Made by a program: the position numbers and the translations under genes. A DNA stretch of 64,000 bases from Rhodospirillaceae bacterium (GTDB lineage Bacteria; Pseudomonadota; Alphaproteobacteria; Bin65): assembly GCA_011523655.1 (NCBI GenBank), contig WTGH01000010.1, forward strand, positions 1 to 64,000. The letters are read 5' to 3'. Each line of letters begins with the position of its first letter. The stretch's first letter is position 1. The notes beneath the pieces were generated by a model. That model made no database searches and had not been told where the DNA came from. It was given only the letters and a program-made list of their open reading frames with translations. Positions 9,879-49,607 of the stretch are shown piece after piece.

Positions 9879-10013
9879 CGTCGTTTCTTTCAAGACAGGA
9901 GAATCTTCGCCCACATTAGTCCGGGGCGCCGGGGAACTCGATCCCGAATTCGCCGGACCGGCCATGCCGTGAACGGAAATGCGTCCGGACCTCGAATATG
10001 ATAGGAGAAGTCG

Positions 10014-10646: not shown

Positions 10647-10694
10647 GGCGTCGATTCCGGGAGCCGCCGGCGCCGGGCAAAGGAGGCGGAAAAA

Positions 10695-11657: not shown

Positions 11658-11701
11658 CCAAGTTTCTTGGATTTTTCCAGATTATTGGGATATCATCCCA
11701 A
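11658..11701. promoter_or_regulatory. Two palindromes before the Lrp/AsnC gene (putative autoregulatory operator)
   Basis: CCAAG-TTT-CTTGG (11658-11670) and TTGGGAT-ATC-ATCCCAA (11685-11701) are perfect inverted repeats with 3-base centres, their midpoints 29 bases apart. The second ends two bases before the ATG of the Lrp-type regulator. Lrp/AsnC proteins typically bind such repeated dyads in their own promoters. Here the downstream site would also cover the ribosome-binding region. Confidence 0.6.
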
Positions 11702-11702
11702 A

Positions 11703-12164
11703 ATGAGCCATGATCTCGATGAAGCGGATGTGAGAATCCTGCGTTGTCTGCAACAGGACGCGTCGGTCAGCATGGATGAACTGGCCGCGAGGACGAACCT
11801 GTCGCGCAACGCGTGCTGGCGGCGCGTCAAGCTGTTGGAGGAGCGGCGGATCATCCGCGGGCGCGTCGCGCTGATCGACCCGGATGCGGTCGGTCTCGGC
11901 CTGTCGGTCTTCGTCATCATCCGCACCAGCGCCCATGAAGAGGGCTGGCTCGCCAAGTTCGAGGAAGCGGTCCGGACGCTGCCGGAGATTCAGGGCGCCC
12001 ACCGGATGACCGGCGATATCGATTACGTGCTCCGGCTGCGGGTCGCGGACGTCACGGGTTATGACCGGTTCTACAAGCGCCTGATCGCCAAGGTCCCGAT
12101 CTCCGACATTTCGGCCAGTTTCGTCATGGAAGACATCAAGGAGTCGACGGCCCTGCCGATCTAG
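11703..12164 (+). CDS. Lrp/AsnC family transcriptional regulator
   Basis: A 153-residue regulator: N-terminal HTH (LDEADVRILRCLQQDASVSMDELAARTNLSRNACWRRVKLL, residues about 4-45) and a C-terminal RAM effector domain ending in the conserved DIKESTALPI. A longer frame exists upstream, but the ATG at 11703 matches the family start. Its stop codon shares the four bases CTAG (12161-12164) with the stop of the opposing TRAP gene. Probable targets are itself and the divergent DUF6356 gene; control of the adjacent TRAP system is only a possibility. Confidence 0.9.
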   Translation: MSHDLDEADVRILRCLQQDASVSMDELAARTNLSRNACWRRVKLLEERRIIRGRVALIDPDAVGLGLSVFVIIRTSAHEEGWLAKFEEAVRTLPEIQGAHRMTGDIDYVLRLRVADVTGYDRFYKRLIAKVPISDISASFVMEDIKESTALPI

Positions 12165-12640
12165 TTCCGCGTCGTCCGAATGAGACGGATTGTGCCCAGA
12201 ACGATGCAGGTCGCCGCTGTCACGACGATCCCGGCGAATGACGGGACGGCGAAGACGAGATGCGACCACTCCATGTTGGTGGTGCGTTCTCCGGCTTCGT
12301 GCAGTTCCAGCCCGTGTCCGAGGACCGGCCAGGCCAGCACGGCGAAGAACAGGCCGGCGACGATCAGCCAGACGGCGTCCAGGCGGGCATTCGTGCGGCC
12401 GGACAGACGGGTCGTGAACAGGTCGACCGCAATATGCCCGTCTTTGACGAAGGTGTGGGAGAAGGCGAAATAGGCCATCAGCACCATGGTGAGCGTCGAT
12501 ATCTCGATGACGCCGACCAGGTAGAACAGCTTCAGGTTCCGGCCGGCGATATCCAGCACGGTAAGGGTCATCAGGCCAACGATGGCGACGCCGGCGAGCG
12601 CCGCCATTCCGGCCAGCAGCAGCCGTGGCGCGCGCCTCAT
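12161..12640 (-). CDS. dctQ: TRAP transporter small permease (DctQ)
   Basis: A 159-residue inner-membrane protein with four hydrophobic helices, the third and fourth being AVWLIVAGLFFAVLAWPVL and LVFAVPSFAGIVVTAATCIVL. This is the DctQ layout of a TRAP importer. The ATG overlaps the dctM stop as ATGA, so translation is coupled. The gene order in transcription is dctP-dctM-dctQ; the commoner order is P-Q-M. Confidence 0.85.
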   Translation of the reverse strand: MRRAPRLLLAGMAALAGVAIVGLMTLTVLDIAGRNLKLFYLVGVIEISTLTMVLMAYFAFSHTFVKDGHIAVDLFTTRLSGRTNARLDAVWLIVAGLFFAVLAWPVLGHGLELHEAGERTTNMEWSHLVFAVPSFAGIVVTAATCIVLGTIRLIRTTRN

Positions 12641-15230: not shown

Positions 15231-16835
15231 ATGATCGAGCGCCCGAACTTCCTGTTTTTCATGACCGACCAGCAGCGGGCGGATCACCTGTCCTGCGCCG
15301 GCAACACCCTGCTGCGCACGCCGCACATCGATTCGATCGCGGCGCGCGGCACGCGGTTCGACCGCTTCTATGTCGCGGCGCCGATCTGCATGCCGAACCG
15401 GGCAACGATCCTGACCGGCCGGATGCCGAGCCTGCACGGCGTGCGGATGAACGGCATTCCGCTCGGCCTCGACGCGACCTGCTTTACCCATCTGCTGAAG
15501 CGCGCCGGCTACCGGACGGCGCTGATGGGCAAGGCCCATTTGCAGAACTTCACCGGCCAGGAGAAGGCCTTCGCTACCGAATGGCCGGAGGGCCTCGAAG
15601 CGACGCCGCCGGATTTGAGTGAAGCCGTCCATCCGCTGCGCAAGGGTCCGGCGTACGACCGCGAACTGCGTGCCGACGAATGCGACGATCCCGCGACCGA
15701 CGAAGCCGAAGGGGATTTCTACGGCTTCGACAGCTTCCGGCTCTGCACCTGGCACGGCGACAGCGTGCGCGGCCACTATTCGCGCTGGCTCGAGCAGCGC
15801 CTCCCGGACTCCGACAGCTATCGCAGCCGGGACAACCCGCTGCCCGATCCGCGATACGACGCGCCCCAATGCCGGCGGACGCGCATTCCGGAGGCGCTGT
15901 ACCCGTCAAGCTACATCGCGGACATGACCGTGGACTATCTGGAGAAGTACGCCGCCGAGGGCGCCCGGGCGCCCTTCTTTCTCCAGTGCTCGTTTCCCGA
16001 TCCGCACCATCCCTTTACGCCGCCGGGAAGGTATTGGGACCTGTACGATCCGGCCGACATAGCGCTGCCGGAGAGTTTCTACCACCGGCCCCACGACCAG
16101 ACGCCGGCGCTGGCGGCCATGCACCGGGAGTTCGAGACCGGCGTCGCCGACCGGCGCTGGGTGCTGCCCTACGCGGTCAACGAAGCCGAAGCGAAGCAGA
16201 TCGTCGCCGTCACCTACGGCATGATCGCCCTGATCGACGACTGCATCGGCCGCGTGCTGGCGGCGCTCGAAGAGTTCGGGCTTGCGGCAAACACGGTCGT
16301 CGTCTTTACGAGCGACCATGGCGACTGGATGGGCGACCACGGCATCGTGCAGAAGGGGCCGCTGCACTATCAGAGCCTGATCCGTGTCCCGTTTCTCTGG
16401 TCCGATCCGGCCGCAAGGGACCGCCCGGTCTCGACCGACTCTCTGTGCAGTTCCCTGGACATTGCCCAGTCGATTCTGGCACGGGCCGGCCTCGCACCGT
16501 TCAACGGCATGCAGGGGCAGGACCTTGCCGCCGTGCTCGCTGGCGGCAGGTCGGAGCACGACGGCCTCGTCATCGAACAGCAAACGGCCCGGCCCTATAT
16601 GGGTCTGACAAGTTCGGTCCGCGTCCGCACCTTCCAGGACCGGCGCTGGCGGATGACCTTGTGGGAAGGCCAGGACTTCGGCGAGTTGTACGATCTCGAC
16701 AACGATCCCGGCGAGATCGCGAACCTGTGGGACGACGCCGGACACCGGGCCGTGCGCAAGGACCTCATGGAGCGCATGGCCTGGAAACTGTTCGAATTGC
16801 AGGACCGCTCGCCGCTCCAGACAGGCGAAGCCTGA
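15231..16835 (+). CDS. Sulfatase (arylsulfatase/choline-sulfatase class)
   Basis: A 534-residue sulfatase of the alkaline phosphatase superfamily. Metal ligands appear in NFLFFMTDQQRADHL. The formylglycine site is C53 in CMPNR (residues 53-57) followed by ATILTGRMPSLHG. Later come VVFTSDHGDWMGDHG, with the second set of metal ligands, and QKGPLHYQSLIRVPFLW. No signal peptide is visible, so it acts in the cytoplasm. It would hydrolyse an organic sulfate ester after Cys53 is oxidised by a formylglycine-generating enzyme, none of which is nearby. It is divergent from the TRAP operon, whose cargo could be its substrate or product. Confidence 0.9.
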   Translation: MIERPNFLFFMTDQQRADHLSCAGNTLLRTPHIDSIAARGTRFDRFYVAAPICMPNRATILTGRMPSLHGVRMNGIPLGLDATCFTHLLKRAGYRTALMGKAHLQNFTGQEKAFATEWPEGLEATPPDLSEAVHPLRKGPAYDRELRADECDDPATDEAEGDFYGFDSFRLCTWHGDSVRGHYSRWLEQRLPDSDSYRSRDNPLPDPRYDAPQCRRTRIPEALYPSSYIADMTVDYLEKYAAEGARAPFFLQCSFPDPHHPFTPPGRYWDLYDPADIALPESFYHRPHDQTPALAAMHREFETGVADRRWVLPYAVNEAEAKQIVAVTYGMIALIDDCIGRVLAALEEFGLAANTVVVFTSDHGDWMGDHGIVQKGPLHYQSLIRVPFLWSDPAARDRPVSTDSLCSSLDIAQSILARAGLAPFNGMQGQDLAAVLAGGRSEHDGLVIEQQTARPYMGLTSSVRVRTFQDRRWRMTLWEGQDFGELYDLDNDPGEIANLWDDAGHRAVRKDLMERMAWKLFELQDRSPLQTGEA

Positions 16836-17149
16836 ACCGGATTTTTGCGTCCGGGCAATCGCGGATATCGAGGACACGACGGCCCTGCCGATCCAGGCTG
16901 CCTCTATTCCCGGCGGATCGCGAAAGACGCCTGAGCGGATCGGCGCCCCGGTGCGGGAGCCGACGGCATTGCCTGTCGCCGGCGATCGGGCGGCGGACGG
17001 CCCGGACGGCAGGCGACAAATTTGCTGGCGCGGGAAACCGCGAAAACGGAAACACTGCGCCAACCTGCGCGCCTGGGTAGCCCAGGCAGGAAACATCCGG
17101 GTGCCGGAAGGGCGGTGCCTACCATTCCGATACCCGTGACGGCCGGCTA
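16836..17149. other. Spacer with a relic of an Lrp/AsnC gene
   Basis: No intact gene is seen in these 314 bases. Bases 16858-16893 read IADIEDTTALPI in the + frame, which matches the conserved C-terminal end of Lrp/AsnC proteins (DIKESTALPI in the intact copy at 11.7-12.2 kb). The frame runs on without family similarity to a stop near 17139. This looks like the last few codons of a lost regulator. Confidence 0.35.
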
Positions 17150-25987: not shown

Positions 25988-26397
25988 GGGCGAATCATGG
26001 GCGGCGCTTCCCGAGCCGAACAAGATTGCCCTGAAAAAAGCGCCGCCGGAATCCCCCTCCCCTTGGGGGAGGGGCTAGGGGAGGGGTCGTCCGGCAGCGC
26101 GCCGATGCCGGTTCCGGCAAGGCTTCGGTCGCCGCTTACCCCTCCCCCTAACCCCCTCCCCCAAGGGGAGGGGGGACTGCCTTGCTTGCCCTGTTGAAGC
26201 CCGGTCGCGGCCTTTCGCAGGGGAATCCTCTGAAAAGGGGAAAAAACGTTTCCGGCCGGTCCGGACCGAAGGACAGGCGCCGGCGCGGCGGTTGCGGCGT
26301 CTGCGGCCGATGAAAACAGCAGCCAGGCCAGGGCGAGGATCGCCGCGGCCCACCAGGGGGCGGGCATCCGTTTGCGCAGCGGCCGGCCTCCCGGCAA
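25984..26397 (-). CDS. Doubtful small secreted protein running through a repeat
   Basis: A 137-codon frame that begins 3 bases after the coxL stop and ends in an ATGA overlap with the thiolase start. The first 40 residues look like a signal peptide (WWAAAILALAWLLFSSAADA), but the rest is translated palindromic repeat (26053-26174), rich in Pro, Ser and Gly. It may be the remnant of a small gene invaded by the repeat, or not a gene at all. The start would be TTG at 26397 or ATG at 26367. Confidence 0.25.
   Translation of the reverse strand: MPGGRPLRKRMPAPWWAAAILALAWLLFSSAADAATAAPAPVLRSGPAGNVFSPFQRIPLRKAATGLQQGKQGSPPSPWGRGLGGGVSGDRSLAGTGIGALPDDPSPSPSPKGRGIPAALFSGQSCSAREAPPMIRP
26053..26174. 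repeat. Dispersed palindromic repeat, copy 1
   Basis: Two inverted arms, CCCCTCCCCTTGGGGGAGGGG (26053-26073) extended by CTAGGGGAGGGGTCG, and a right arm (about 26137-26173) containing CCCCTCCCCCTAACC and CCCCCAAGGGGAGGGG. The arms also fold internally. The same family recurs at 39231-39350, where the integrated element has split it. Confidence 0.8.
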
Positions 26398-39230: not shown

Positions 39231-39350
39231 CCCCCTTCCCTTGGGGGAGGGGGTCAGGGGGAGGGGTCTGCCGCGATCCGCTTCAATTCCGAAAGCGGCC
39301 GTGAGCGCGCCGGCAAGCAACTCCTCCGCTAACCCCTCCCCCAAGGGGAG
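39231..39350. repeat. Dispersed palindromic repeat, copy 2, interrupted by the integrated element
   Basis: Left arm CCCCCTTCCCTTGGGGGAGG (39231-39250) extended by GGGTCAGGGGGAGGGG, and right arm CTAACCCCTCCCCCAAGGGG (from 39329). The right arm is cut after CCAAGGGGAG at 39350. The missing GGGGG appears at 49452-49455, on the far side of the element, as expected if the repeat was the insertion target. Compare the intact copy at 26053-26174. Confidence 0.75.
39340..39350 (+). other. Left attachment core (attL)
   Basis: CCCAAGGGGAG, identical to 49441-49451. To its left the host palindromic repeat continues; to its right the sequence changes to element DNA with lower GC. The direct repeat of 11 bp is short, but the continuity of the host repeat across the two copies supports it. 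Confidence 0.6.
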
Positions 39351-39401
39351 CCGTTTGGCATAGACAGGGCTTGACACACCTAGTCACCCCTTCCCTAACC
39401 T

Positions 39402-39419
39402 ATTGAAATTAATTGCAAT
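39402..39419 (+). repeat. 18 bp repeat, copy A
   Basis: ATTGAAATTAATTGCAAT, 88 bases upstream of the integrase start and 51 bases inside the left end. Related copies lie at 41317-41334 (inverted) and 41388-41405 (direct). Candidate integrase arm site or regulator operator. Confidence 0.5.
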
Positions 39420-39427
39420 CCTATGTC

Positions 39428-39457
39428 TTGCCATGACAGGGCAGGACACTATATGAT
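39428..39457 (+). promoter_or_regulatory. Putative integrase promoter
   Basis: TTGCCA (39428-39433), an 18-base spacer and TATGAT (39452-39457), 32 bases before the integrase ATG. The integrase also has AAAGG 7 bases upstream of its start. Confidence 0.55.
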
Positions 39458-39489
39458 ATGCGTAAAGTGGTAAACAGAAAGGTACTGAT

Positions 39490-40641
39490 ATGAAGCGTCC
39501 AAAGACACTCACAGCCGCCTTTGTTCGCAACGTGAAAGCGCGGGGCAGGTTCGGAGACGGGCGGGGCGGGCACGGCCTGTCCCTGCTAGTACAGAAAACG
39601 AAATCCGACCGCTGGTCTAAGACTTGGAGCCAAAGGCTTCGCATTGGCGGCAAAAAACCTGTCAGCATCGGCCTTGGCTCTTATCCTGCCGTCACCCTGT
39701 CCGAAGCGCGGGACCGCGCCCTTCGGAATGCGCGGGCCGTTCAAGAGGGGCGCGACCCCCGCGGGCCGGGTGTGCCGTCATTCCATGAAGCCGCCGCCCG
39801 GACAATCGACCTTCAATCACAAGCATGGACCGGAAACAAGACGGAAGCCCTTTGGCGGAATACTCTGGCGACCTATGCCGCCCCGATTGCCGAGCGCCGG
39901 ATTGACACGATACAAGTTGCGGACGTGTTGACGGTGATTTTGCCGATTTGGCATGACAAGCCGGAACTGGCGCGCAAATTCCGGCAGATGCTTTCCGCGG
40001 TGTTCAAGTACAGCATTGCGCACGGATGGCGGCAGGATGATCCAGCCCATGCTGTAGGGGCCATTCTGCCGAAACAGAACGGCAAGACGGTTAAGCATCG
40101 GGAAGCCGTACCGCACGCCAAGGCGGCGGACGCACTCGCCAAGGTCCGGGGAGTTACCGCCGTTGCTACCGCGAAATTGGCGTTGGAATGGATCATGTTG
40201 ACGGCTTGCCGGTCGGGTGAGGCACGCGGCGCGACGTGGGATGAAATAGACCTAGAAGCGGGTGTTTGGGTTGTGCCTGCCGAGCGCATGAAGGGCGGCA
40301 AGGAATGGCGTGTTCCTCTGTCTGCCGCGGCCCTAGACGTGTTAGAGCGGGCGGCGGCACACCGGGACGCTTCCGGCCTGATTTTCCCCTCTGTCCGCGG
40401 GCGGGTTATGACGGACAAGGTTTTGTCCGGCTTGCTCAAAGACGCCAAGGTTGCCGCGACGGTACACGGCTTTCGTACCAGCTTCCGCACATGGGCCGGC
40501 GACACTGGCGAGGAAAGGGAACTGGCGGAACTGTCCCTCGCACACTGCATCGGCAATTCCGTTGAGCAAGCCTACGCCCGCACAGACTTGTTGGAGCGTC
40601 GCCGCGGCCTTATGGAGCGTTGGGCCGGATACATCTGTTAG
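39490..40641 (+). CDS. int: Tyrosine integrase (P4-type with arm-binding domain)
   Basis: Site-specific recombinase of 383 residues. The N-terminal 90 residues form the arm-DNA-binding domain (LSLLVQKTKSDRWSKTWSQRLRIGGKKPVSIGLGSYPAVTLSEARDRA). The catalytic set is Arg in ACRSGEARGATW, HGFR in VHGFRTSFRTWAGD, His in SLAHCIGNSVEQ and the nucleophile Tyr in AYARTD. It lies at the left end reading inwards. Related integrases usually target tRNA genes; here no tRNA is seen and the target appears to be an intergenic palindromic repeat. A strong terminator follows the gene. Confidence 0.94.
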   Translation: MKRPKTLTAAFVRNVKARGRFGDGRGGHGLSLLVQKTKSDRWSKTWSQRLRIGGKKPVSIGLGSYPAVTLSEARDRALRNARAVQEGRDPRGPGVPSFHEAAARTIDLQSQAWTGNKTEALWRNTLATYAAPIAERRIDTIQVADVLTVILPIWHDKPELARKFRQMLSAVFKYSIAHGWRQDDPAHAVGAILPKQNGKTVKHREAVPHAKAADALAKVRGVTAVATAKLALEWIMLTACRSGEARGATWDEIDLEAGVWVVPAERMKGGKEWRVPLSAAALDVLERAAAHRDASGLIFPSVRGRVMTDKVLSGLLKDAKVAATVHGFRTSFRTWAGDTGEERELAELSLAHCIGNSVEQAYARTDLLERRRGLMERWAGYIC

Positions 40642-40678
40642 AGCCGCCTAGAAGCCCGTACAGGGCCAGGAAGGCACA

Positions 40679-40705
40679 GGGCCGGGGAAACACCCCGGCC
40701 CTTTT
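40679..40705 (+). terminator. Rho-independent terminator after the integrase
   Basis: Perfect 9 bp stem GGGCCGGGG (40679-40687) with CCCCGGCCC (40693-40701), loop AAACA, then TTTT. It separates integrase transcription from the alpA promoter. Confidence 0.9.
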
Positions 40706-40781
40706 CTTTGGCTGGCAGCGGCCCTTAAACGGCGCTCTAGGGTGTGACTATCTGTCCAGTGTTGAAGGCCGATGCTAGGAA

Positions 40782-40811
40782 TTGACAGGAAAGGAAAACA
40801 ATCCTTATTAT
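40782..40811 (+). promoter_or_regulatory. Strong sigma-70-like promoter for alpA
   Basis: TTGACA (40782-40787), 18-base spacer, TATTAT (40806-40811), located 34 bases before the AlpA-like start. It is the best consensus match in the element and probably drives the early or regulatory transcript. Confidence 0.75.
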
Positions 40812-40845
40812 CGACAAACACAAAAGAAAGGCCCATCCGGTGCTT

Positions 40846-41007
40846 ATGAGGATCAAAGAGATTGGCGAAATGCTAGGGGTTTCGTCCCGCACCGTACACC
40901 GCTGGTACAAAGAGGGGAATTTCCCCCCGCCCATTCGTTTGTCAAAGAACTGCGTTGCTTGGAAGCGCGAGATTGTTGAGGCATGGATTTCGGAACGGCA
41001 ATCCTAG
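40846..41007 (+). CDS. alpA: AlpA-like excisionase/regulator
   Basis: A 53-residue MerR/AlpA-type helix-turn-helix protein: MRIKEIGEMLGVSSRTVHRW, then YKEGNFPPPIRL and WKREIVEAWISER. AlpA proteins act as excisionases or activators of the integrase in P4 and PICI-type satellites. An in-frame GTG at 40840 could be the true start. It is preceded by a strong promoter and followed by 468 bases without a convincing gene. Confidence 0.85.
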   Translation: MRIKEIGEMLGVSSRTVHRWYKEGNFPPPIRLSKNCVAWKREIVEAWISERQS

Positions 41008-41475
41008 CCTTCAAGGTCCGCGCGGGGAGTATCCACCGGCGCGCGGGAAACAATAACGGCCTACCGGGGGATGTAACAAAGGCCGAAACCTAGACCAAGC
41101 CGCCCAAAGAGAAAGCGTCGGCGAAAGCGGCAATCAGGGCGGGCGGTGTGCAGACAGGGCGTTACCGCGGGGCGTTACCGCGTAAGGAACTGCAAGGGAT
41201 GGAGCTACGCTGCTGCCATTCCCGCCGTAGCGACGGAATACGTTGCCCGGTGCTGGTCTGTCCCTGTAACCGGGGATAGACCAATTGCGCCTTTGCTCTG
41301 GAATACACCCCCGAGCATTGCAATCAATTGCAATTATCGAACCTTGTAGAACCGGCCCGAAGGGCTACACTGGAACATCCCTCCGGTATTGAAATTGATT
41401 GCAATGCGAGGGGGAAGGGTAGAGTAGAGATAGATTAGGGAATAGTCCCATAACCCTAGACAGGGAGTAGAGAAG
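41008..41475. other. Regulatory spacer in the element
   Basis: No gene supported. It contains a tandem GGCGTTACCGCG/GGGCGTTACCGCG pair (41158-41181) and two facing copies of the 18 bp ATTGCAAT-type repeat (41317-41334 and 41388-41405) that enclose 53 bases. The right half is purine-rich up to the ribosome-binding site of the next gene. Control of the structural operon probably lies here. Confidence 0.45.
41317..41405. repeat. Inverted pair of the 18 bp repeat, copies B and C
   Basis: ATTGCAATCAATTGCAAT (41317-41334) faces ATTGAAATTGATTGCAAT (41388-41405); one is the reverse complement of the other with a single mismatch. With copy A at 39402 they make three sites in the first 2.1 kb of the element. 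Confidence 0.6.
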
Positions 41476-41712
41476 ATGAGCACCGAGAACGTCGCTGCAT
41501 TCCGAAAAGAGATTTCGGAAATTGCGGATCGCATCTGTCAGCTTGAGACCGATGAAATCTATGGGTTGAAGCTAGGCGAGATCGAGGAAGATTATCGCCC
41601 CATAGTCGAAGGCTTGGAGCTTGCCGTCATCAAGGCACTGTCCGATGCCAGACTGTCCCTCTCGGCTATCGAAGACTTGTTCAAGCCCATGATCGAACAG
41701 ACCGGCGGCTAA
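41476..41712 (+). CDS. Small acidic helical protein of unknown function
   Basis: A 78-residue, largely helical, acidic protein (RKEISEIADRICQLETDEIYGLKLGEIEEDY, then AVIKALSDARLSLSAIEDLFKPMIEQ) with heptad-like spacing that could form a coiled coil. GGGAG lies about 9 bases upstream. I do not recognise a family. It occupies the place where a small terminase would be expected, between alpA and terL, but no DNA-binding motif is visible; an anti-repressor or TerS-like role is speculation. Confidence 0.6.
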   Translation: MSTENVAAFRKEISEIADRICQLETDEIYGLKLGEIEEDYRPIVEGLELAVIKALSDARLSLSAIEDLFKPMIEQTGG

Positions 41713-41737
41713 CCCAAAAAGAAAGCGGCCCATCCCT

Positions 41738-41819
41738 GCGTCCGGGAAAAGAGAGGAAAACCGGACGCGGGGACAGGCCAGTGCGTGTGCAAACGTGCAG
41801 ACACGGGGAGACTGCACAC
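41738..41819 (+). other. Two consecutive inverted repeats before terL
   Basis: GCGTCCGG (41738-41745) pairs with CCGGACGC (41761-41768), and GTGTGCA (41785-41791) pairs with TGCACAC (41813-41819). Neither has a T-run, so they are not simple terminators. Their position just upstream of terminase is where packaging sites or structured leaders are often found. Confidence 0.4.
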
Positions 41820-41896
41820 CGCCAATATGCCACCCTCCCGCAATATGTGTCAAATACATATTTCCCGCCCGCATGGCCTAGACATGCGTTCAGTGC

Positions 41897-42001
41897 ATGG
41901 CTTGGGACCCTGCCGCGCCAGATTTTGAACTAGCAGGGACCGGCGGGGGAACCCTGCTATGTAAATTTGCGCTTATCTGGACGGTCGGGAAAAGGGCTTG
42001 A
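41897..42001 (+). CDS. Short frame overlapping the start of terL
   Basis: A 34-codon frame beginning MAWDPAAPDFELAGTGGGTL and ending at TGA 42001, overlapping the terL frame by 35 bases in another phase. The WDPAAPD opening resembles the first residues of some phage terminases. It may be the lost or frameshifted N-terminus of TerL (the GGGAAAAGGG tract at 41988-41997 is a likely slip site) or a short leader peptide. Confidence 0.3.
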   Translation: MAWDPAAPDFELAGTGGGTLLCKFALIWTVGKRA

Positions 42002-43454
42002 AACTGGCGAGCCATGCGTCTATTGCATGGATATGGCGTTGCTGTTCAAATTCCAGAAAGATTTTCTGGCGGGTTGTTTGGACCCTGAAATTGACACTGC
42101 CGCCCTTAGCGTACCGCGGGGAAACGGCAAGTCATGGCTGGCCGGACACCTTGTTTCCCGGATACTCAACCCAAGTGACAAGCTATTTGCACCGGGAACC
42201 GAAAGCGTTTTGTTTTCAGGCTCTATTGAACAATGCCGGATCGTATTTCGGTTTGCCCGGAAAAGATTGGAGCCTTTGGGGGGATATAGGTTTGTAGACA
42301 GCGCAACCCGCGTTGCAATTACTCACAAGGCGACCGGGACCAGATTGCGGGTAATCGGAAGCAACGCAAAGACAAGTTTCGGATTAGTGGATACCCCGTT
42401 TGCGATTTGCGACGAACCGGGAGCATGGGAAACGAACGGCGGAACCTTGCTCTATGACGCTATCGCAACCGCACAGGGCAAACCGGGAAGCCCATTGAAG
42501 GCCGTATTTATCGGGACACTTGCCCCCGCAAAAGGCGGCTGGTGGCATACCATGATAGAAACCGGAACGCACGGTTCAACCTATGTCCAATCTTTGCAGG
42601 GCGATAGAGACAAGTGGGACCAGTGGGAGGAAATACAACGCTGCAACCCCTTGTCCGCAATAGACGAAAATTTCAAAAGGAAACTACTTGAGGAACGCGA
42701 CGCGGCCCTAGCGGATAGCCGATTGAAGGCAAGGTTTTTTTCGTACCGTCTCAACATCCCATCGGCAGACGAAAGCGAATTGCTATTGACTGTAGACGAT
42801 TGGCAAAAGGTATCTGCAAGGCCCATAGAAGGCCGTACAGGGCGGCCAATCGTGGGATTGGACCTTGGGGCGCATAGAGCATGGAGCGCGGCCCTGGCGA
42901 TATGGCCGAACGGCAGGACGGAAGCTATTGCCGTTGCTCCCGGTATCCCCGACATACGGGAACAGGAAAAGCGGGACCGCGTGCCGGAAGGCATGTATCA
43001 GAAATTAGTCGATAAAGGGTTATTGCAATTGGCTGCAAATTTGCGCGTGCCTCCCCCGTCATTGCTAATTAACTGGGTACGCGAAAAATGGGGCGTTCCC
43101 CATGCGGTTGTTTGCGACAGGTTTCGGCTTGCGGAATTACGGGATTGCTCTTTGCCTTGTGAGTTAATCTCCCGCGTTGCGCGCTGGTCCGATGCAAGTT
43201 TTGATATTCGGGCGTTGCGGAAAATTGCAAAAGACGGTCCCTTGTCCGTCACAGAGGAAAGCCGGCCCTTGATCCTTGCCAGTCTGTCCGCGGCCCTAGT
43301 GGAAAACGACAAACAAGGATCAATGCGGCTTATCAAACGGGGAACCGAAAACGCGGCCCGCGATGACGTTGCAGCGGCCTTCACACTGGCGGCGGGGGAA
43401 TTTGAAAGGCGGCGGGCAAGGCCGGCAATCGGCACATACGGCGGTCTGGTCTAA
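41967..43454 (+). CDS. terL: Phage terminase large subunit
   Basis: DNA-packaging motor, 495 residues from a TTG start. The ATPase half has Walker A VPRGNGKSWLAG (about residues 48-59), a Walker B region FAICDEPGAW, and a coupling segment VFIGTLAP. The nuclease half begins near residue 295 with VGLDLGAHRAWSAALA, followed by HAVVCDRFRLAEL and NAARDDVAAAF, the acidic metal-binding positions. The start is uncertain: ATG 42027 or 42033 are alternatives, and an upstream frame at 41897 may hold displaced N-terminal codons. Its stop overlaps the HNH start (TAATG). Confidence 0.9.
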   Translation: MRLSGRSGKGLETGEPCVYCMDMALLFKFQKDFLAGCLDPEIDTAALSVPRGNGKSWLAGHLVSRILNPSDKLFAPGTESVLFSGSIEQCRIVFRFARKRLEPLGGYRFVDSATRVAITHKATGTRLRVIGSNAKTSFGLVDTPFAICDEPGAWETNGGTLLYDAIATAQGKPGSPLKAVFIGTLAPAKGGWWHTMIETGTHGSTYVQSLQGDRDKWDQWEEIQRCNPLSAIDENFKRKLLEERDAALADSRLKARFFSYRLNIPSADESELLLTVDDWQKVSARPIEGRTGRPIVGLDLGAHRAWSAALAIWPNGRTEAIAVAPGIPDIREQEKRDRVPEGMYQKLVDKGLLQLAANLRVPPPSLLINWVREKWGVPHAVVCDRFRLAELRDCSLPCELISRVARWSDASFDIRALRKIAKDGPLSVTEESRPLILASLSAALVENDKQGSMRLIKRGTENAARDDVAAAFTLAAGEFERRRARPAIGTYGGLV

Positions 43455-43741
43455 TGGCGGGCAAGGCCGGCAAGCGGGTTTACAAGACAAAGCAATGGCA
43501 GATTGTGAGGCAACAAGTCTTTGCGCGGGATAACTGGCGTTGCGTGAAGTGCGGAAGGATGGGAATATTGGAATGTGACCATATCGAGTCGATACAAAAG
43601 GGCGGCGATTGGTTTAGGCTCAACAATCTGCAAACGCTATGCCGAGGGTGTCACATTGGAAAAACTAGACAGGAAAACCGGAAAGGCTTACCTTCAGCGG
43701 AATGCGCAACCTTTTTAAGGATGGCGACCGATGCCCCGTGA
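43454..43741 (+). CDS. HNH endonuclease
   Basis: A 95-residue HNH nuclease. C-x2-C in CVKCGRMG and C-x2-H in LCRGCH form the zinc site, with the HNH core ECDHIESIQKGGDWFRLNNLQTLC. Small HNH proteins encoded next to TerL assist DNA cleavage during packaging in HK97-like phages. It overlaps terL upstream and the next gene downstream by 11 bases, so the cluster is tightly coupled. Confidence 0.9.
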   Translation: MAGKAGKRVYKTKQWQIVRQQVFARDNWRCVKCGRMGILECDHIESIQKGGDWFRLNNLQTLCRGCHIGKTRQENRKGLPSAECATFLRMATDAP

Positions 43742-44492
43742 AAGACTGGATCAAATCATCAAGGTTGCATCCGTCAGTGTTGCGGACCCGGACCCTTCGG
43801 ATGCTTTCGTTTACAATGTTTCGGCAAACGACGAACTGATAGAGGAATGGCGTATTCCGCTGTTCAATCAGGACGATCCCGACATTGTGTCCCTTCAAAT
43901 CGACCTAGGAGACTTTTACCCGGTCGGTACATTTCCGAAGGGATACGATATCATAGTCGGGCGGGAAAAAGACGATCCCGACGCTGTATCCTACACCATT
44001 TCGGAGTTTATCGCTTTCGCCGATGCTTTCGATTTGGTGCCCGAAGTCCGCGACGGAAACGCGGTATTCCCGCCCATTCCCGAAGGGCAGAGAATACGCG
44101 GCTTCAATCGGCAAACGGTTGCGACGGCGCGCGCCCGGCTTGACCGGCCCTTTCAAAGCCCAGGACACGGTTTGCGCTTTGTGTCGGCATGGGTGGGGGC
44201 AACGGGCGGGCGTTCCGGCACGTTGTACAAGGAAACCGCCCGGCAGGTATGGGCGCGGCAGGTTAATTTGCGGGCCGTTCCCGCGGTCGGGGCGATAGAC
44301 GATCCGAAGGCCGCGGGGATCGAGTACCGCGGGGAATGGCTGGTACAGGATACAGCGGTTAAGGTCGGTGACGTGCTGCTAATCCCGAACGGGACAGAGG
44401 AAAGGCGGTACGTCGTTCAGGAAACCGAATGGGAAGATTTGCGGGCAACGCAAACGACAGTCACCGCGACGCTTGACCAGCCTGCCGCCTAG
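43731..44492 (+). CDS. Putative head-closure/structural protein
   Basis: A 253-residue protein. The N-terminal ~145 residues are unfamiliar, acidic and likely beta-rich. The C-terminal ~90 residues (RQVWARQVNLRAVPAVGAID, then YRGEWLVQDTAVKVGDVLLIPNGTEERRYVVQETEWED) resemble a small beta-barrel like those of phage head-closure (SPP1 gp16-type) proteins. The position between terL/HNH and a gp10-like neck gene agrees with this. The identification rests mostly on context. Confidence 0.55.
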   Translation: MPRERLDQIIKVASVSVADPDPSDAFVYNVSANDELIEEWRIPLFNQDDPDIVSLQIDLGDFYPVGTFPKGYDIIVGREKDDPDAVSYTISEFIAFADAFDLVPEVRDGNAVFPPIPEGQRIRGFNRQTVATARARLDRPFQSPGHGLRFVSAWVGATGGRSGTLYKETARQVWARQVNLRAVPAVGAIDDPKAAGIEYRGEWLVQDTAVKVGDVLLIPNGTEERRYVVQETEWEDLRATQTTVTATLDQPAA

Positions 44493-44495
44493 ATC

Positions 44496-45047
44496 ATGGC
44501 CGCTATCGTCTATCGCGTCGAATTATTAGTCGCGGACGCTCCCGATTTTGTTACGCCGGAAGGTCAAAGGGCGTATGGCCGTTTTGAACAGGAAAGCGAC
44601 AAACTACTAAAGGCGGCTATGGACGAAACCCGGAAGCTATTGCGCCGGGAAGCCCCCAAGCGGCCCGGAAGCCGCCGCCTTGCCAATTCGCTTCGGGTAT
44701 CGAAAATCCGCCGAAAAAGAAAACGCGGCCTGCCGGTTGTCGTAGGGTATCAAGTATCTTCGGGCCGCTCCCGAAGGGTGTTCTATGCTTCAATAACAGA
44801 GACAAGACAGGGAACCCGCGTAAGCGGCTGGTTTTCCGATTTTCTGGAAACCCTAGAGAAAAGCCCCGAACTGGAGAATTTGCAGCGGGAGATTGTGGCA
44901 TTATTCACACAGGCCATTGCAATTGAATTTCGCTTCCGTTCCCGAAAAGACATGATCGGACGAATAAAGGTTGATTTTCCTAAAGCGCGTGTTGTACCTT
45001 TGGGGAGGGATGGCTTTAGAGCCACGGTTAATTTCGGCAGAGGGTGA
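44496..45047 (+). CDS. HK97 gp10-like neck/tail-completion protein (putative)
   Basis: A 183-residue basic protein. The segment MDETRKLLRREAPKRPGSRRLANSLRVSKIRRKRKRG follows the gp10-family pattern of a long helix, then PKRxG and LxNSLRV, and a beta-rich continuation VVVGYQVSSGRSRRVFYASITETRQGTR. The C-terminal part is longer than in HK97 gp10 and contains an extra helix. It begins three bases after the preceding stop. A neck role is likely but not proven. Confidence 0.6.
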   Translation: MAAIVYRVELLVADAPDFVTPEGQRAYGRFEQESDKLLKAAMDETRKLLRREAPKRPGSRRLANSLRVSKIRRKRKRGLPVVVGYQVSSGRSRRVFYASITETRQGTRVSGWFSDFLETLEKSPELENLQREIVALFTQAIAIEFRFRSRKDMIGRIKVDFPKARVVPLGRDGFRATVNFGRG

Positions 45048-45054
45048 CGGGACC

Positions 45055-46329
45055 ATGCGACGGTCACAGGAACTGACAATCAAAATTTCGGAGGCGCGGG
45101 AGCGCCTTAACAAAGCAATCGAAAAACGCAACGCCCTTGGCGACAAGGAACCGGATGGCGAATTGCTTTCCGAAATGGACGCTGCGTCAAAAGCCCTTCC
45201 GCCGTTGGAGATTGAATACCGGGCCGCGGTTCAAGCGGAAGCGGCGGAAGACGAAGCCGCGACACGCGACAACCCGGACAGCGAAATGCGGGAACGCCAA
45301 CGCCTAGAAGGGCAATGCAGCGTTACCGCTTTCATGGCGGAAGCGGTTGCCGATAAGCCGGTGAAGGGCGCAGAAGCCGAATACCGGGCGGCGGAATTGG
45401 GCGACAACGCCGCGGAGGGTTTCATGCCGCTTCGCTTGTTGGCCGAACCGCAAAGCGAAGAGCAACGCACCGAAAAGCGCGCCGTGACGCCCGTTGCCGA
45501 TGCCGCTACCGGCTTGGGCTCGCAATCTGACATTATGGGCCGGGTTTTTGAGCGGTCCATTGCCGCACAATTGGGCGTTGCAATGCCCGCCGTCCCGATG
45601 GGAACGCGGACTTGGCCTATCTTGACCGGAGGCACTACGGTTTCCCAGCAAGCGCCTTCCGGGGAGCAGGCCGCGGTTGCCGGCACGTTTGCCGGAACGG
45701 AACTTTCCCCCCGCCGGTTGACCGGCAGTTACGAATTTCGGGTTGAAGATTTGTCCTTGCTTCGCGGTTTGGAACCGGCATTGCGGCGCGATTTGCGCGC
45801 CCTGATAACGGACCAGATGGATCAGCAAATCTTGAATGGCGACGGAACCGATCCGAACGTCAACGGGTTTTTCGCCAAGCTAGGCGACCCTGACGCGGCA
45901 ACCGGCTTGGCCGGCCATACGGAATTTGTTGCCGCCTTTACTGGCATGGTTGACGGCAAACATGCGTATTCCCTTGCGGATGTCCGCGCCATTATCGGCA
46001 AGGCCACATATACCCGCATGGAAAGCGTCTACCGTTCCAACAATGCAGACGAAAGCGCCTATTCGTACCTGTCCCGCCGGGCCGGTATCATCCGTGTTTC
46101 GTCTCGTATGCCGGCGGTTGCGAGTAACGATCAAGAAGCGATTTTCGCCCTTACCAGCGTTCCCGGTACAACCGCGGTTGCGCCGATTTGGAGCGCCGCG
46201 CAATTGATCCGTGATCCGTACACGCTGGCGCAAAAGGGCGAAGTGCGCATTACTATGCTGGCGCTTTGGAATTTCGCCGTCTTGCGCACCGCAGCTTTCG
46301 CCCGTTACGAATTTCAAGTTACGTCCTAG
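45055..46329 (+). CDS. Major capsid protein, HK97 fold
   Basis: A 424-residue precursor. Residues 1 to about 125 form a charged helical delta-type scaffolding domain (LTIKISEARERLNKAIEKRNALGD), followed by the mature HK97-fold domain. Recognisable parts are GRVFERSIAAQLGV, LSPRRLTGSYEFRVEDLSLLRGLEPALRRDLRALITDQMDQQILNGDGTDPNVNGF and a C-terminal TLAQKGEVRITMLALWNFAVLRTAAFARYE. ATG 45055 has no strong ribosome site but starts the conserved scaffold. The capsid gene comes before its protease, opposite to the usual phage order. Confidence 0.9.
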   Translation: MRRSQELTIKISEARERLNKAIEKRNALGDKEPDGELLSEMDAASKALPPLEIEYRAAVQAEAAEDEAATRDNPDSEMRERQRLEGQCSVTAFMAEAVADKPVKGAEAEYRAAELGDNAAEGFMPLRLLAEPQSEEQRTEKRAVTPVADAATGLGSQSDIMGRVFERSIAAQLGVAMPAVPMGTRTWPILTGGTTVSQQAPSGEQAAVAGTFAGTELSPRRLTGSYEFRVEDLSLLRGLEPALRRDLRALITDQMDQQILNGDGTDPNVNGFFAKLGDPDAATGLAGHTEFVAAFTGMVDGKHAYSLADVRAIIGKATYTRMESVYRSNNADESAYSYLSRRAGIIRVSSRMPAVASNDQEAIFALTSVPGTTAVAPIWSAAQLIRDPYTLAQKGEVRITMLALWNFAVLRTAAFARYEFQVTS

Positions 46330-46338
46330 GGCGGACTA

Positions 46339-46863
46339 ATGGCGGACGGTCTAGAGCGCCGGGCGTTCGAGTTTCGGGCGTCCGATGATGGCGTATTGCA
46401 GGGAATTGTCATTCCCTACAATCAGGCCGCGACTATTGGCGATTTTTCCGAAAAGTTTTTGCCCGGAAGCGTCCAATTTTCGGATGTGATAGCCAATCGG
46501 CAACACGATAGATCGAAACCCCTTGCCCGTACCGGAATGGCCGGCGGTTTGTCTCTTACGGACGGACCGGACGCTTTGCGCGCCCGGATCGAATTGCCGG
46601 ACACTCAAGACGGGCGGGACGTTCGGGCATTGGTAAAGCGGCGCGTGTTGCGCGGCCTGTCTGCCGAATTTCGCGTGCAGCGGGATATGTGGGAAGGCCG
46701 GTCCCGGACTATCCATGCCGCAACCCTCACGGGATTGGCTATTGTGGACAAACCGGGATACGGGGGAGCAACTGTTGCAGAGGTCCGGGCCGCCGTCGCC
46801 AGACTTGAAGCGGGTTGCTTGAAGGCAAAACCGGGAGCGCCCTTGTTGTGGCCGTCACTGTAA
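46339..46863 (+). CDS. HK97-family prohead protease
   Basis: A 174-residue serine protease of family U35. It opens with ERRAFEFRASDDGVLQGIVIPYNQAATIGDFSEKFLPGSV. The catalytic His lies in NRQHDRSKPLAR and the Ser in RVLRGLSAEFRV, and LTGLAIVDKPGYGGATV closes the domain. It cleaves the delta domain of the capsid precursor during maturation. It starts 9 bases after the capsid stop and overlaps the connector gene. Confidence 0.92.
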   Translation: MADGLERRAFEFRASDDGVLQGIVIPYNQAATIGDFSEKFLPGSVQFSDVIANRQHDRSKPLARTGMAGGLSLTDGPDALRARIELPDTQDGRDVRALVKRRVLRGLSAEFRVQRDMWEGRSRTIHAATLTGLAIVDKPGYGGATVAEVRAAVARLEAGCLKAKPGAPLLWPSL

Positions 46864-47174
46864 CGACCCTTGCCATAGACTTGCAGGTTCACACCGACCC
46901 AGATACACCCCCGGTTGAGCCGCTGGCGGGCGTCCTAGGCCGCGCCCTTGATACGGCGCGGGCACTTGTGGAGAAACGAACGGCAACCGACACCCCGGAA
47001 GCCGTGAAGGATGCAGCGATAACCGCAATTGCAAGCTACCTGTACGACCGGCCTACCGCCCCCCAGGGCGAAAGGTTTAGCAACCCGTGGCGTAGCAGCG
47101 GGGCCGCATCCATTCTAGCGCCGTGGGTAGTATTGCGTGCGCAAGCCATCAACGGGGATGCAGACAATGAGTAG
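46848..47174 (+). CDS. gp6-like head-tail connector protein
   Basis: A 108-residue helical protein. The signature is TPEAVKDAAITAIASYLYDRPTAPQGERFSNPWRSSGAASILAPWVVLRA, matching the gp6/head-tail adaptor family. The start is taken as GTG 46848, with GGGAG 10 bases upstream; a longer TTG start at 46815 is possible. It overlaps the protease end by 16 bases. Confidence 0.78.
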   Translation: MAVTVTTLAIDLQVHTDPDTPPVEPLAGVLGRALDTARALVEKRTATDTPEAVKDAAITAIASYLYDRPTAPQGERFSNPWRSSGAASILAPWVVLRAQAINGDADNE

Positions 47175-47469
47175 AATTGAAATTGACGAAATTCTTTCAG
47201 CGGGAAACCCGCTTTCCGAACAAGTGGATTTTACCGATAAGGACAGGGTTTCGGTTCATGTTTCCCGCCTTTCAAATTCCGGCGCTTTTGTCGTTACGCT
47301 TGAAGCAACCCTTTTAGGCGCGGGGGATTGGGCTGTTATTGGCAGGTTTTCCGATACCAAGCTAACCGATACATCTTCAAATCTTTCCGTGCTGAATGTC
47401 GGGCCGTCCTTGTCTTATCGCTTCCGCCATGTTTCGGGCGAAAATGTCCGCGTTATGTTACGGAATTAA
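47167..47469 (+). CDS. Small beta-rich virion-like protein of unknown function
   Basis: A 100-residue protein, mostly beta-strand by appearance (DRVSVHVSRLSNSGAFVVTLEATLLGAGDWAVIGRF, then LSYRFRHVSGENVRVML). No family recognised. It overlaps the connector gene by 8 bases and ends 3 bases before the portal, so it belongs to the head operon and could be a decoration, neck or portal-accessory protein. Confidence 0.65.
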   Translation: MSRIEIDEILSAGNPLSEQVDFTDKDRVSVHVSRLSNSGAFVVTLEATLLGAGDWAVIGRFSDTKLTDTSSNLSVLNVGPSLSYRFRHVSGENVRVMLRN

Positions 47470-47472
47470 ACT

Positions 47473-48516
47473 ATGTGGCCGTTTGGAAAATCCGCTCCCC
47501 CGGTTGAGGAACGCGCCAGTTACACGGACGCGGCGGTTGCCGCTTTACTGGATGCCGCAACCGGGGGAGGGAAAGCCGACTATAAGGAAACCGCCGCCGC
47601 ACAGGCCGCAGCGGGATTGGTAGGGCGTTCCCTTGCGCTTGCCACAATAGAAGGCGGGACGCCCGCCCGAACCGGCTTAACGCCCGCCTTGTTGCATGAT
47701 TTAGGGTGCGCTTTGATCCTTGACGGGGAAGCGGTCTACAGGATCGACGTGACGCAGGCCGGGATTGTCATTCTGCAAAGGGCTTCCGATTGGGACATAA
47801 CGGGCGGACCTAACCCCTTGTCATGGCGCTACCGCCTAACCCTGCCGGGACCGTCCCGAAACGAACAAGTTATTTTGCCGGGGGATGCAGTCTTTCACCC
47901 TCGCATGAATGTTTCCGCTTCCGAACCGCACAAGGGACAATCGCCTATTGCCGTTGCCGTACAGTCTGCCCGCCTTGCCGCGGGATTGGAAAAGCAAATG
48001 GCAAATGAGGCAACGCAACCGTCCGGGCAATTGCTCCCCCATCCCGACGGTGTAGAAGGCAATATCCTAGACGATATTAAGGCCGATTTGAAAAAGATGG
48101 CGGGCCGGTCCATGCTTGTGCCGTCTATGGCCGGGGGATGGGGCGATGGCAAGGCTAACGCACCGGCAGACTGGCAACCGCGCCGCTTAGGTTTCAATCC
48201 TGCCGAAACCGTCCTAGGCGTCCGGGAGAGCGTCTATAAGAGCCTTGTTGCCGCGGCAGGCATTCCGCCCGCCCTGTTCGGGGAAAGCCGTGCAGAAGGC
48301 GCGCGAGAAGCCCTGAGGCAGTTTTTACATTTTGCCCTTGAGCCGATGGCCGCAATTATCGCGGTTGAGGCAAGCGCGAAACTTGCCGCCCCTGTCCGGT
48401 TCGGTTTCGATAGGTTGTTTGCAAGCGACATTCAGGGCCGGGCGCGGGCGTTCAAATCGCTTCGGGATGGCGGTATGAGTAAGGCCAGCGCGGCGCGCGT
48501 CACCGGCATGGCATGA
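47473..48516 (+). CDS. Portal protein, HK97 family
   Basis: A 347-residue portal. It contains DLGCALILDGEAVYRIDV, PGDAVFHPRMNVSASEPHKGQSPIAVAVQSARLAAGLEKQMANEATQPSGQLLPHP and a C-terminal LVAAAGIPPALFGESRAEGAREALRQFLHFALEPMAAII, typical of the HK97 portal. It is somewhat shorter than the usual 400-450 residues. The portal is last in the head operon here, whereas in most phages it directly follows terL. Confidence 0.88.
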   Translation: MWPFGKSAPPVEERASYTDAAVAALLDAATGGGKADYKETAAAQAAAGLVGRSLALATIEGGTPARTGLTPALLHDLGCALILDGEAVYRIDVTQAGIVILQRASDWDITGGPNPLSWRYRLTLPGPSRNEQVILPGDAVFHPRMNVSASEPHKGQSPIAVAVQSARLAAGLEKQMANEATQPSGQLLPHPDGVEGNILDDIKADLKKMAGRSMLVPSMAGGWGDGKANAPADWQPRRLGFNPAETVLGVRESVYKSLVAAAGIPPALFGESRAEGAREALRQFLHFALEPMAAIIAVEASAKLAAPVRFGFDRLFASDIQGRARAFKSLRDGGMSKASAARVTGMA

Positions 48517-48755
48517 TGGCGATTAAGTGGGCGCACAGGGACCGGGATACCGCCATGCGCACTACGGGCCTTCCCGCTGGCCTCTATGTCGGCAAATCGG
48601 GCGGGGCGGGCCTTACCAAGGATGTTGCTTTCCTGCGCGCCAAGAAAAAGCCGTGTGCCTGTTGCGGGACCCTATTCCGCCCTACCCTGAAACGCCGGAT
48701 GCTTTGTGTTGATTGTTACAGGAATGGCGGACCTGCCGACGATATGCCGGACTAG
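48513..48755 (+). CDS. Small zinc-ribbon protein
   Basis: An 80-residue basic protein with two CxxC pairs (CACC and CVDC, residues about 48-68) that probably bind one zinc ion. ATG overlaps the portal stop (ATGATGG context), so it is the last gene of the head operon. Function unknown; a DNA-binding or transcription-control role is possible. Its stop shares CTAG with the opposing gene. Confidence 0.65.
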   Translation: MMAIKWAHRDRDTAMRTTGLPAGLYVGKSGGAGLTKDVAFLRAKKKPCACCGTLFRPTLKRRMLCVDCYRNGGPADDMPD

Positions 48756-49093
48756 GCAACCTTCCGGCTCTTAGCGGCCATGCGTTCCTTGTGCCGGGCG
48801 GCAGTTTGCCTTTCTGACAAATCCTCCCGCCATTGCTCTATCAGCAATTCCGCGTCGGCTTCGGAAAATGCGTCAAGCCTTTCCGGTACGGCCCGATCAA
48901 GGCCGGCGCAAAGTCCCTCTATGATGATCCTTTGGGCGGGTGTGATCCGCGGATCGTCCCTTGCCGTGTCGGCTTCCGTGGTATCCAATGCCCTAGCGTA
49001 TTCCCTTTGCAGGGACCGCTTGCCGAGTTTCCAGCCGACCAATCCCCCAATGAGGGAAAAGCAAACGGCAAAGCCTGTAATAGCAACCCACAT
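48752..49093 (-). CDS. Small membrane-anchored protein, only gene on the minus strand of the element
   Basis: A 113-residue protein with one N-terminal membrane helix (MWVAITGFAVCFSLIGGLVGW) and a charged cytoplasmic helical region (LDAFSEADAELLIEQWREDLSERQTAARHKERMA). ATG 49093 has GGAG 8 bases upstream, better than the longer frame start. Its orientation against the head operon suggests that it is expressed in the integrated state, for example as an exclusion or phage-interference protein. That is inference; no family is recognised. Confidence 0.55.
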   Translation of the reverse strand: MWVAITGFAVCFSLIGGLVGWKLGKRSLQREYARALDTTEADTARDDPRITPAQRIIIEGLCAGLDRAVPERLDAFSEADAELLIEQWREDLSERQTAARHKERMAAKSRKVA

Positions 49094-49163
49094 GATCCGC
49101 TCCTCTGCGTCAAAAGCGACCAGAATCAAACCTAGTCATATCGTGTCTGTTTAGGACAATGGG

Positions 49164-49373
49164 GTGTCTGGTCCATTAACCGCACCCCTAGCCATGACTG
49201 TTCATGCACTTGCCGATATAGCAATTGACTGGATTGCTGAGGAATACGCCGGAGATACCGGCCTTGACCTACCGCCGGCCCTCAAAAAGCACTTGATGCA
49301 GCTTGGGGAGAAAGATGTGAAAATCAAATGGCACTGGTATGGATGTAAAATTCTGTTTATCAAACACCTCTGA
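49164..49373 (+). CDS. Doubtful small protein near the right end of the element
   Basis: A 69-codon frame (or 59 from ATG 49194): MTVHALADIAIDWIAEEYAG, then LDLPPALKKHLMQLGEKDVKIKWHWYG. Codon use is plausible, but ribosome-binding signals are weak. It is the last frame before the right attachment core. No family recognised. Confidence 0.35.
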   Translation: MSGPLTAPLAMTVHALADIAIDWIAEEYAGDTGLDLPPALKKHLMQLGEKDVKIKWHWYGCKILFIKHL

Positions 49374-49607
49374 TAGGCAAAGTGGTAACGAATTTTGAGG
49401 AATGGCGGAAAACTGCCGTTTTTCATACCTTACCGGCTCACCCAAGGGGAGGGGGATATGGCTGCATGGCCGCACCCATGCGACACCATCCGAGGGAAGA
49501 CAGTTCCCGCGTCGCATTTTCGCAGAGCAATCCGGCAAAAAGGACGGCGAACGAGACGCCGGCCGGCCCCGCCGGTCAGGCGGCAGGGGCCGGTCCGGCG
49601 ACAGGCG
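49374..49607. other. Right end of the element and restored host spacer
   Basis: Element DNA ends at about 49440. From 49441 the host repeat resumes (CCCAAGGGGAGGGGGATATG), after which GC content rises again. A GC-rich inverted repeat (GGCCGGCCCCGCC with GGCAGGGGCCGG, about 49561-49595) lies just beyond the tctC stop and could end its transcript. No other gene is seen. Confidence 0.55.
49441..49451 (+). other. Right attachment core (attR)
   Basis: CCCAAGGGGAG, identical to the left core at 39340-39350. It is followed by GGGGG, which completes the host palindromic repeat arm that is truncated on the left side. Confidence 0.6.

Follow-up and report, generated by a model that had tools for sequence, protein, structure and literature searches.

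The window analysed here (64,000 nucleotides, positions 1-64,000 of the forward strand of contig WTGH01000010.1) comes from the 4.27-Mb genome of a Rhodospirillaceae bacterium (GCA_011523655.1; genome G000) and contains a single inserted unit of 10,101 bp at 39336-49451, with the 15-bp core CTC(C/A)CCCAAGGGGAG at both ends (39336-39350 and 49437-49451). In the sister genomes G005 (94-96% identical) and G003, the flanks are contiguous and one copy of the core stands in place of the attL-to-attR unit; G001, G002 and G006 of the same genus also have the locus without the insert, making five sister genomes in which it is absent. The empty-site junctions of G005 and G003 place the ends within 4 bases of those first proposed (39340-49451), and the measured length agrees with the proposed size of about 10.1 kb. 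The GC content across the unit is 0.53-0.60, compared with 0.65-0.70 around it, and the genes on either side of the insertion point are tctB and tctC, which belong to a tripartite tricarboxylate transporter cluster as judged from their translations. The element is a complete integrated unit, and its stretch 41476-48755 is already found, with identical sequence, among the viral contigs of IMG/VR (L004). The window has two copies of a MITE/REP-like inverted repeat of about 115 bp with arms CTCCCCCAAGGGGAG, at 26057-26170 and 39235-39350; the element occupies the right arm of the second copy, and its attB is a dispersed repeat, as against a tRNA gene in most relatives. Its features are as follows:

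39336-39350, no strand: attL core CTCCCCCAAGGGGAG, present once where the site is empty in G005 and G003, in an arm of the ~115-bp inverted repeat
39402-39419, no strand: candidate operator box 1, ATTGAAATTAATTGCAAT, 70 bp before int
39490-40641, plus strand: tyrosine integrase (PF00589, PF22022, PF13356; 46% to the integrase of relative L014)
40840-41007, plus strand: AlpA-like regulator (PF05930, 7.9e-10, 38.9 bits against a cut-off of 21; start GTG, or ATG at 40846)
41317-41334, no strand: candidate operator box 2, ATTGCAATCAATTGCAAT, 5' of orf78
41388-41405, no strand: candidate operator box 3, ATTGAAATTGATTGCAAT, 70 bp before orf78
41476-41712, plus strand: orf78 (DUF4351 below cut-off), in the slot of a replication gene in most relatives checked
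41967-43454, plus strand: terminase large subunit, TerL (phrog_9, 7e-34; start TTG at 41967 or ATG at 42027)
43454-43741, plus strand: HNH endonuclease, packaging-associated type (PF01844)
43731-44492, plus strand: orf253, no family and no homologue among relatives, found only in this member
44496-45047, plus strand: HK97 gp10-like/Neck1 connector, weak (PF04883, 20.1 bits against a cut-off of 21.4; phrog_5, 0.003)
45055-46329, plus strand: major capsid protein, HK97 fold, with a helical N-terminal (delta-like) domain (PF05065; fold search with a model)
46339-46863, plus strand: prohead serine protease, S78 (PF04586, 1.6e-16)
46815-47174, plus strand: gp6-like head adaptor, all-helical, probable start 46848, conserved in the family, no database match
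47137-47469, plus strand: orf110 (ORF call), between adaptor and portal, candidate head-completion protein by position
47473-48516, plus strand: portal protein (PF04860, 3.3e-13)
48513-48755, plus strand: orf80, zinc-finger-like, kept 3' of the portal in several relatives
48752-49129, minus strand: orf125 (ORF call), N-terminal membrane helix by inspection
49164-49373, plus strand: small ORF, doubtful (ORF call)
49437-49451, no strand: attR core CTCACCCAAGGGGAG, present once where the site is empty in G005 and G003

The genes from the integrase to orf80 form one run in a single direction (39490-48755), followed 3' by the two small ORFs. None of the reading frames of the element has an internal stop, and TerL carries its Walker A (SVPRGNGKS), Walker B (AICDEP) and nuclease (GLDLG) motifs, in keeping with the original prediction that the genes are apparently intact. 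The gene list given there is supported by family matches for the integrase, AlpA, TerL, HNH, capsid, protease and portal, and less firmly for the connectors, of which the gp10-like protein falls below its cut-off and the gp6-like protein is without a match; a fold search with a model of the latter returned nothing convincing. No tail, lysis or replication family was detected in the ORFs of the element, as had been claimed, and no ORF gave a family match to a small terminase subunit (TerS), a role that orf78 may have. Rfam families were also searched for within the element and none was found. A search of the 4.27-Mb genome for the palindrome ATTGNAATNNATTNCAAT, allowing one mismatch, gave three sites, all of them within the element (boxes 1 to 3), compared with none for a reversed control. 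AlpA or a regulator of the helper is likely to bind there.

Two further elements of this kind are present in the same genome, G000:C16 (9,739 bp, 47-bp repeat, tRNA-Lys TTT) and G000:C6:187 kb (10,247 bp, 46-bp repeat, tRNA-Lys CTT), and two more in G001, in tRNA-Ser and tRNA-Arg; in the head cassettes of these relatives, capsid and portal show 29-37% identity. A single scan of GTDB genomes, made with a TerL alignment, yielded 20 loci, nearly all in MAGs with sponge-project bin names, in Alphaproteobacteria, Gammaproteobacteria, Gemmatimonadota, Binatota, Nitrospinota, Latescibacterota, Chloroflexota and Actinomycetes. Judging from the bin names (RHO, COS, CAR) and the sponge host species listed in PMC8163846, most of these hosts would be sponge symbionts. 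IMG/VR, likewise scanned with TerL alignments (the portal alignment A6 being too divergent for a pattern scan), contributed about 80 contigs with the same gene order, many of them from isolate genomes. Nearly all of the approximately 100 further loci from the two sources keep the order terL-HNH-capsid-protease-(adaptor)-portal, and they provide the syntenic, tail-less relatives for which a search had been proposed. The family is rare at strict thresholds in samples of 385 genomes of the class and 398 of the phylum. One complete member of 10,645 bp, with the core CCCTTCGTTGGGGAAGGGTGTCCCACT, resides on a 1.58-Mb replicon of a cultured strain, Pseudorhodobacter turbinis S12M18. Decayed family fragments with stops (L015, G002:C168 and G004:C64) are found in sister genomes, indicative of past insertions and loss.

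To check host assignment, the flanking proteins of two long contigs were compared among MAGs. That of L048 is 89% identical to a protein in the other Nitrospinota MAG and at most 56% identical elsewhere; for L044 the identity is 68-70% in the other two Gemmatimonadetes MAGs, with no more than 29% outside them. Because these proteins match MAGs of the same phylum best, we accept the Nitrospinota and Gemmatimonadota hosts, and by this evidence the presence across phyla is real for L048 and L044, the short contigs resting on binning. The original description of the host as an alphaproteobacterium is correct for the copy in the window and too narrow for the family, which spans several phyla.

The size of the members varies little. 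The 16 elements with both ends identified, mostly in tRNA genes, measure 10,078 bp on average (SD 414, range 9,494-10,661), and IMG/VR members with terminal att repeats measure 9.6-10.5 kb. In mismatched flank pairs, a 16-bp repeat arose in 1.4% of cases and a 14-bp repeat in 15%, for which reason the border of L050 rests on the position of its tRNA. If the element's own head sets the limit on packaging, a constant size of about 10 kb even in distant hosts is what would be expected.

No tail module was detected in the stretches examined of about 100 syntenic relatives. Among the first 25 of the 50 families matched in a PHROGs scan of 99 non-core ORFs from 15 elements were integrases, replication proteins and HNH proteins, and many of the larger unassigned ORFs of relatives were scanned singly after that tally. 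The sole "tail fiber" match among the listed families (L034:3107-3592, phrog_817) has an endolysin family among its matches as well, a lysis enzyme being the likelier identity; the tape measure family PF10145 was found in none of 35 IMG/VR records, some of which are 17-26 kb long. Tail genes of very divergent sequence may exist in the family, and a 10-kb element would leave little space for them. We rejected an intact or defective tailed prophage, as neither tail nor lysis genes were detected; close relatives forming full prophages with both at the same site, named at the outset as the finding that would overturn the proposal, were looked for and none appeared among the ~100 relatives.

In most relatives checked, a RepA/AAA_25, VapE-like, O-like, TOPRIM or PriCT gene occupies the slot that separates alpA from terL, and L038 has its replication gene near one end, outside this slot. 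In the window element the slot contains orf78 only, with no replication gene. The suggestion that the element is even more minimal than known types, with no primase, is therefore accurate for this copy and does not extend to the family. End repeats of 99 bp show four IMG/VR contigs (L079, L158, L160 and L162) to be circles of 9,236-10,095 bp; they carry TerL, capsid and portal, and a search for an integrase in these four gave no match. A large ORF of 673-714 aa in L158 and L160 appears primase-like from its position and our reading of it, with no family match. As these contigs demonstrate, the family includes forms that are not integrated. The circular members, lacking an integrase, do not prove the excision of integrated copies, and they could be non-integrating satellite viruses.

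Such circles raise the alternative that the family consists of autonomous small HK97-type viruses or phage-plasmids, which would enter cells independently of a tail or by means of an unrecognised minimal one, and of which the integrated copies would be proviruses. The circular members (9.2-10.1 kb), which have head genes and lack an integrase, the primase-like ORF of L158 and L160 and the related size of 9-11 kb everywhere are all compatible with this, as are unassigned ORFs, among them proteins of 764-816 aa in which the gp6-like adaptor lies at one end and a further region that fits no family clearly is fused behind it (L051:13567-16017, L079:3484-5778 and L162:3263-5563), that of L051 with a weak tail-fibre match. 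However, a portal with HNH/TerL packaging normally accompanies a tail, most members have no lysis gene, and the absence of a replication gene in the window copy makes at least this copy dependent. We therefore regard the autonomous-virus explanation as improbable.

In a fold search, the predicted capsid model matched HK97 prohead I (Z 13.6), the capsid of the cf-PICI EcCI2 (9gyi; Z 13.3, rmsd 4.7, 229 aligned, tied with HK97 and encapsulins) and that of the Rhodobacter capsulatus gene transfer agent (6tb9; Z 12.9). EcCI2 9gyi was not recovered by a capsid sequence search of the PDB, in which the first capsid profile and the portal profile gave insignificant matches only and a larger capsid profile gave weak matches to three phage capsids. 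Among 50,697 phage genomes, the portal, the window capsid and the window TerL had no match. By the TerL of the bin65 member, the closest named phages are those of the HK97 group (HK97, HK446 and HK106), at 28% identity; they share the HK97-fold capsid, but these are full tailed phages of 37-42 kb. The TerL tree places the window TerL in one fully supported group with members from Alphaproteobacteria, Gammaproteobacteria, Nitrospinota and Chloroflexota (up to 67% identical), a group that the portal tree does not keep. This conflict between the two trees suggests that members have exchanged working modules.

The HK97-type head and the match to 6tb9 also bear on whether a gene transfer agent, or another domesticated head cluster, lies at this locus. 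Gene transfer agents are kept vertically and carry tails. By contrast, the element has its own integrase and AlpA and lacks tail genes, and it does not behave as a vertically inherited cluster: its presence is patchy, insertion sites differ in close relatives and, rather than a single conserved locus across members of the genus, the opposite is seen. Such an origin is extremely unlikely. A decayed prophage remnant that kept its head cassette by chance would explain why half of a normal phage genome is missing, and truncated family fragments with stops do occur in G002 and G004. Yet in the window element all frames are open and exact att borders are matched by empty sites, the same reduced set, order and size are found in many phyla, and no full-length phage with these head proteins exists among the 50,697 genomes. 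The recurrence of the same reduced unit largely refutes the remnant reading, to which we give very little weight.

Capsid-forming phage-inducible chromosomal islands (cf-PICIs) have been described mainly from enterobacteria, Pasteurella and Firmicutes. As defined in published work (PMC10690885; PMC10803314), cf-PICIs such as EcCIEDL933 and EcCI2 have an integrase, AlpA, terminase, HNH, capsid, protease, portal and connectors at a chromosomal att site, and no tail. The window element has an integrase with att repeats, AlpA, capsid, protease and portal, TerL with HNH, and no tail genes; of its connectors, the gp10-like protein scores under the Pfam threshold and the gp6-like one, conserved in the family, has a weak fold match. 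The replication module typical of PICIs is absent from this element and present in most relatives checked. The family further differs in its size of about 10 kb, against a mean cf-PICI genome of 14 kb (PMC10803314), in that no TerS was found and in the order terL-HNH-capsid-protease-adaptor-portal, and the window capsid matches that of EcCI2, the sole cf-PICI capsid compared, in fold and not in sequence. Although the family would work like cf-PICIs, we do not claim membership, given that no TerS match was obtained, this copy has no replication gene and the likeness to the EcCI2 capsid is one of fold. It is apparently an undescribed, large family of same-sized tail-less elements, and earlier mention of some members is possible.

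Other systems share parts of this organization. In Streptomyces, the satellites MulchRoom and MiniFlayer carry genes for packaging and for a capsid, have no obvious replicase and depend on a helper (PMC10690885), as the window element presumably does, a likeness drawn from their description; they differ in their direct terminal repeats and virulent helpers, and one of them no longer has its integration module. The Acinetobacter schindleri plasmid pHZE33-1-1 (L164; NZ_CP044475.1, 45348-51228) bears a tail-less capsid-protease-portal-HNH-TerL-connector cluster, but this is plasmid-borne and in another gene order, with a capsid 24% identical to that of the Pseudorhodobacter member. Tailless prophages have been reported from marine Vibrio (PMC11630473); these are presumably a different kind of tailless phage. 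P4-like, PLE and PICMI satellites, which have no capsid set of their own, were set aside because the element encodes capsid, protease and portal, as were Charybdis elements, which are 4.6 kb and have no HK97 hallmark (PMC12324425).

Taken as a whole, the gene set, the lack of a tail and the ~100 syntenic relatives are best explained as first proposed, by an element that makes its own heads and takes its tails from a helper. The window element is thus probably, as far as sequence can tell, an intact integrated phage satellite that forms capsids and borrows tails in the manner of cf-PICIs; from this we infer its helper dependence and the formation of particles. Read from the sequence, the tyrosine integrase inserted the 10,101-bp unit at the 15-bp core. 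An incoming or resident tailed phage could then trigger AlpA-dependent excision, with the three palindromes as the likely switch, and since this copy has no replication gene, the circle would be replicated by helper or host. TerL and HNH would package it, probably by cos cleavage, into the element's own heads of about 10 kb capacity, formed from the capsid with its cleavable-type N-terminal domain and the maturation protease. Helper tails would join the portal/connector end of these heads, and helper lysis would release the chimeric particles. Because the head would be the element's own and the tail alone borrowed, different helpers could carry it to different hosts, which would account for its spread over several phyla. 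Cf-PICIs depend on their helper for tails only (PMC10690885) and are reported to use the tails of diverse phages, widening their host range (PMC13345910). In the window genome, no tape measure of one common family was found that could mark a resident helper, nor any HK97-type portal besides those of the elements themselves.

More speculatively, the members could be satellite viruses of the HK97 type, with heads only (tails being borrowed or absent) and genomes of about 10 kb, that make up an old lineage of their own with no sequence relationship to sequenced phages save for the distant similarity in TerL. They would circulate between phyla in sponge microbiomes and marine Rhodobacterales-type hosts and swap packaging modules, and their non-integrating circular forms would act as viruses in their own right; we consider this possible, though we would not favor it. 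The family is wider than the described cf-PICIs, with its fixed size of about 10 kb, its uncultured symbiont phyla and its head proteins mostly absent from phage databases. This suggests an old and general strategy in which heads are made and tails borrowed, and which may let genes pass from one phylum to another in sponges and other dense communities. The member in P. turbinis S12M18 opens induction, particles and helper range to direct test.

Several relatives vary around the common core. The integrase lies near an att end, away from alpA, in L035:17115-18200, L038:2154-3212 and L039:18165-19205, and L035 carries an integrase at either end, two in all. Cargo is also seen: L039 carries a PD-T7-4-type anti-phage defence gene (11693-12445; 1e-78) between terL and HNH, and L036 encodes a protein (16262-17017) resembling the protease part of RT-protease defence systems.
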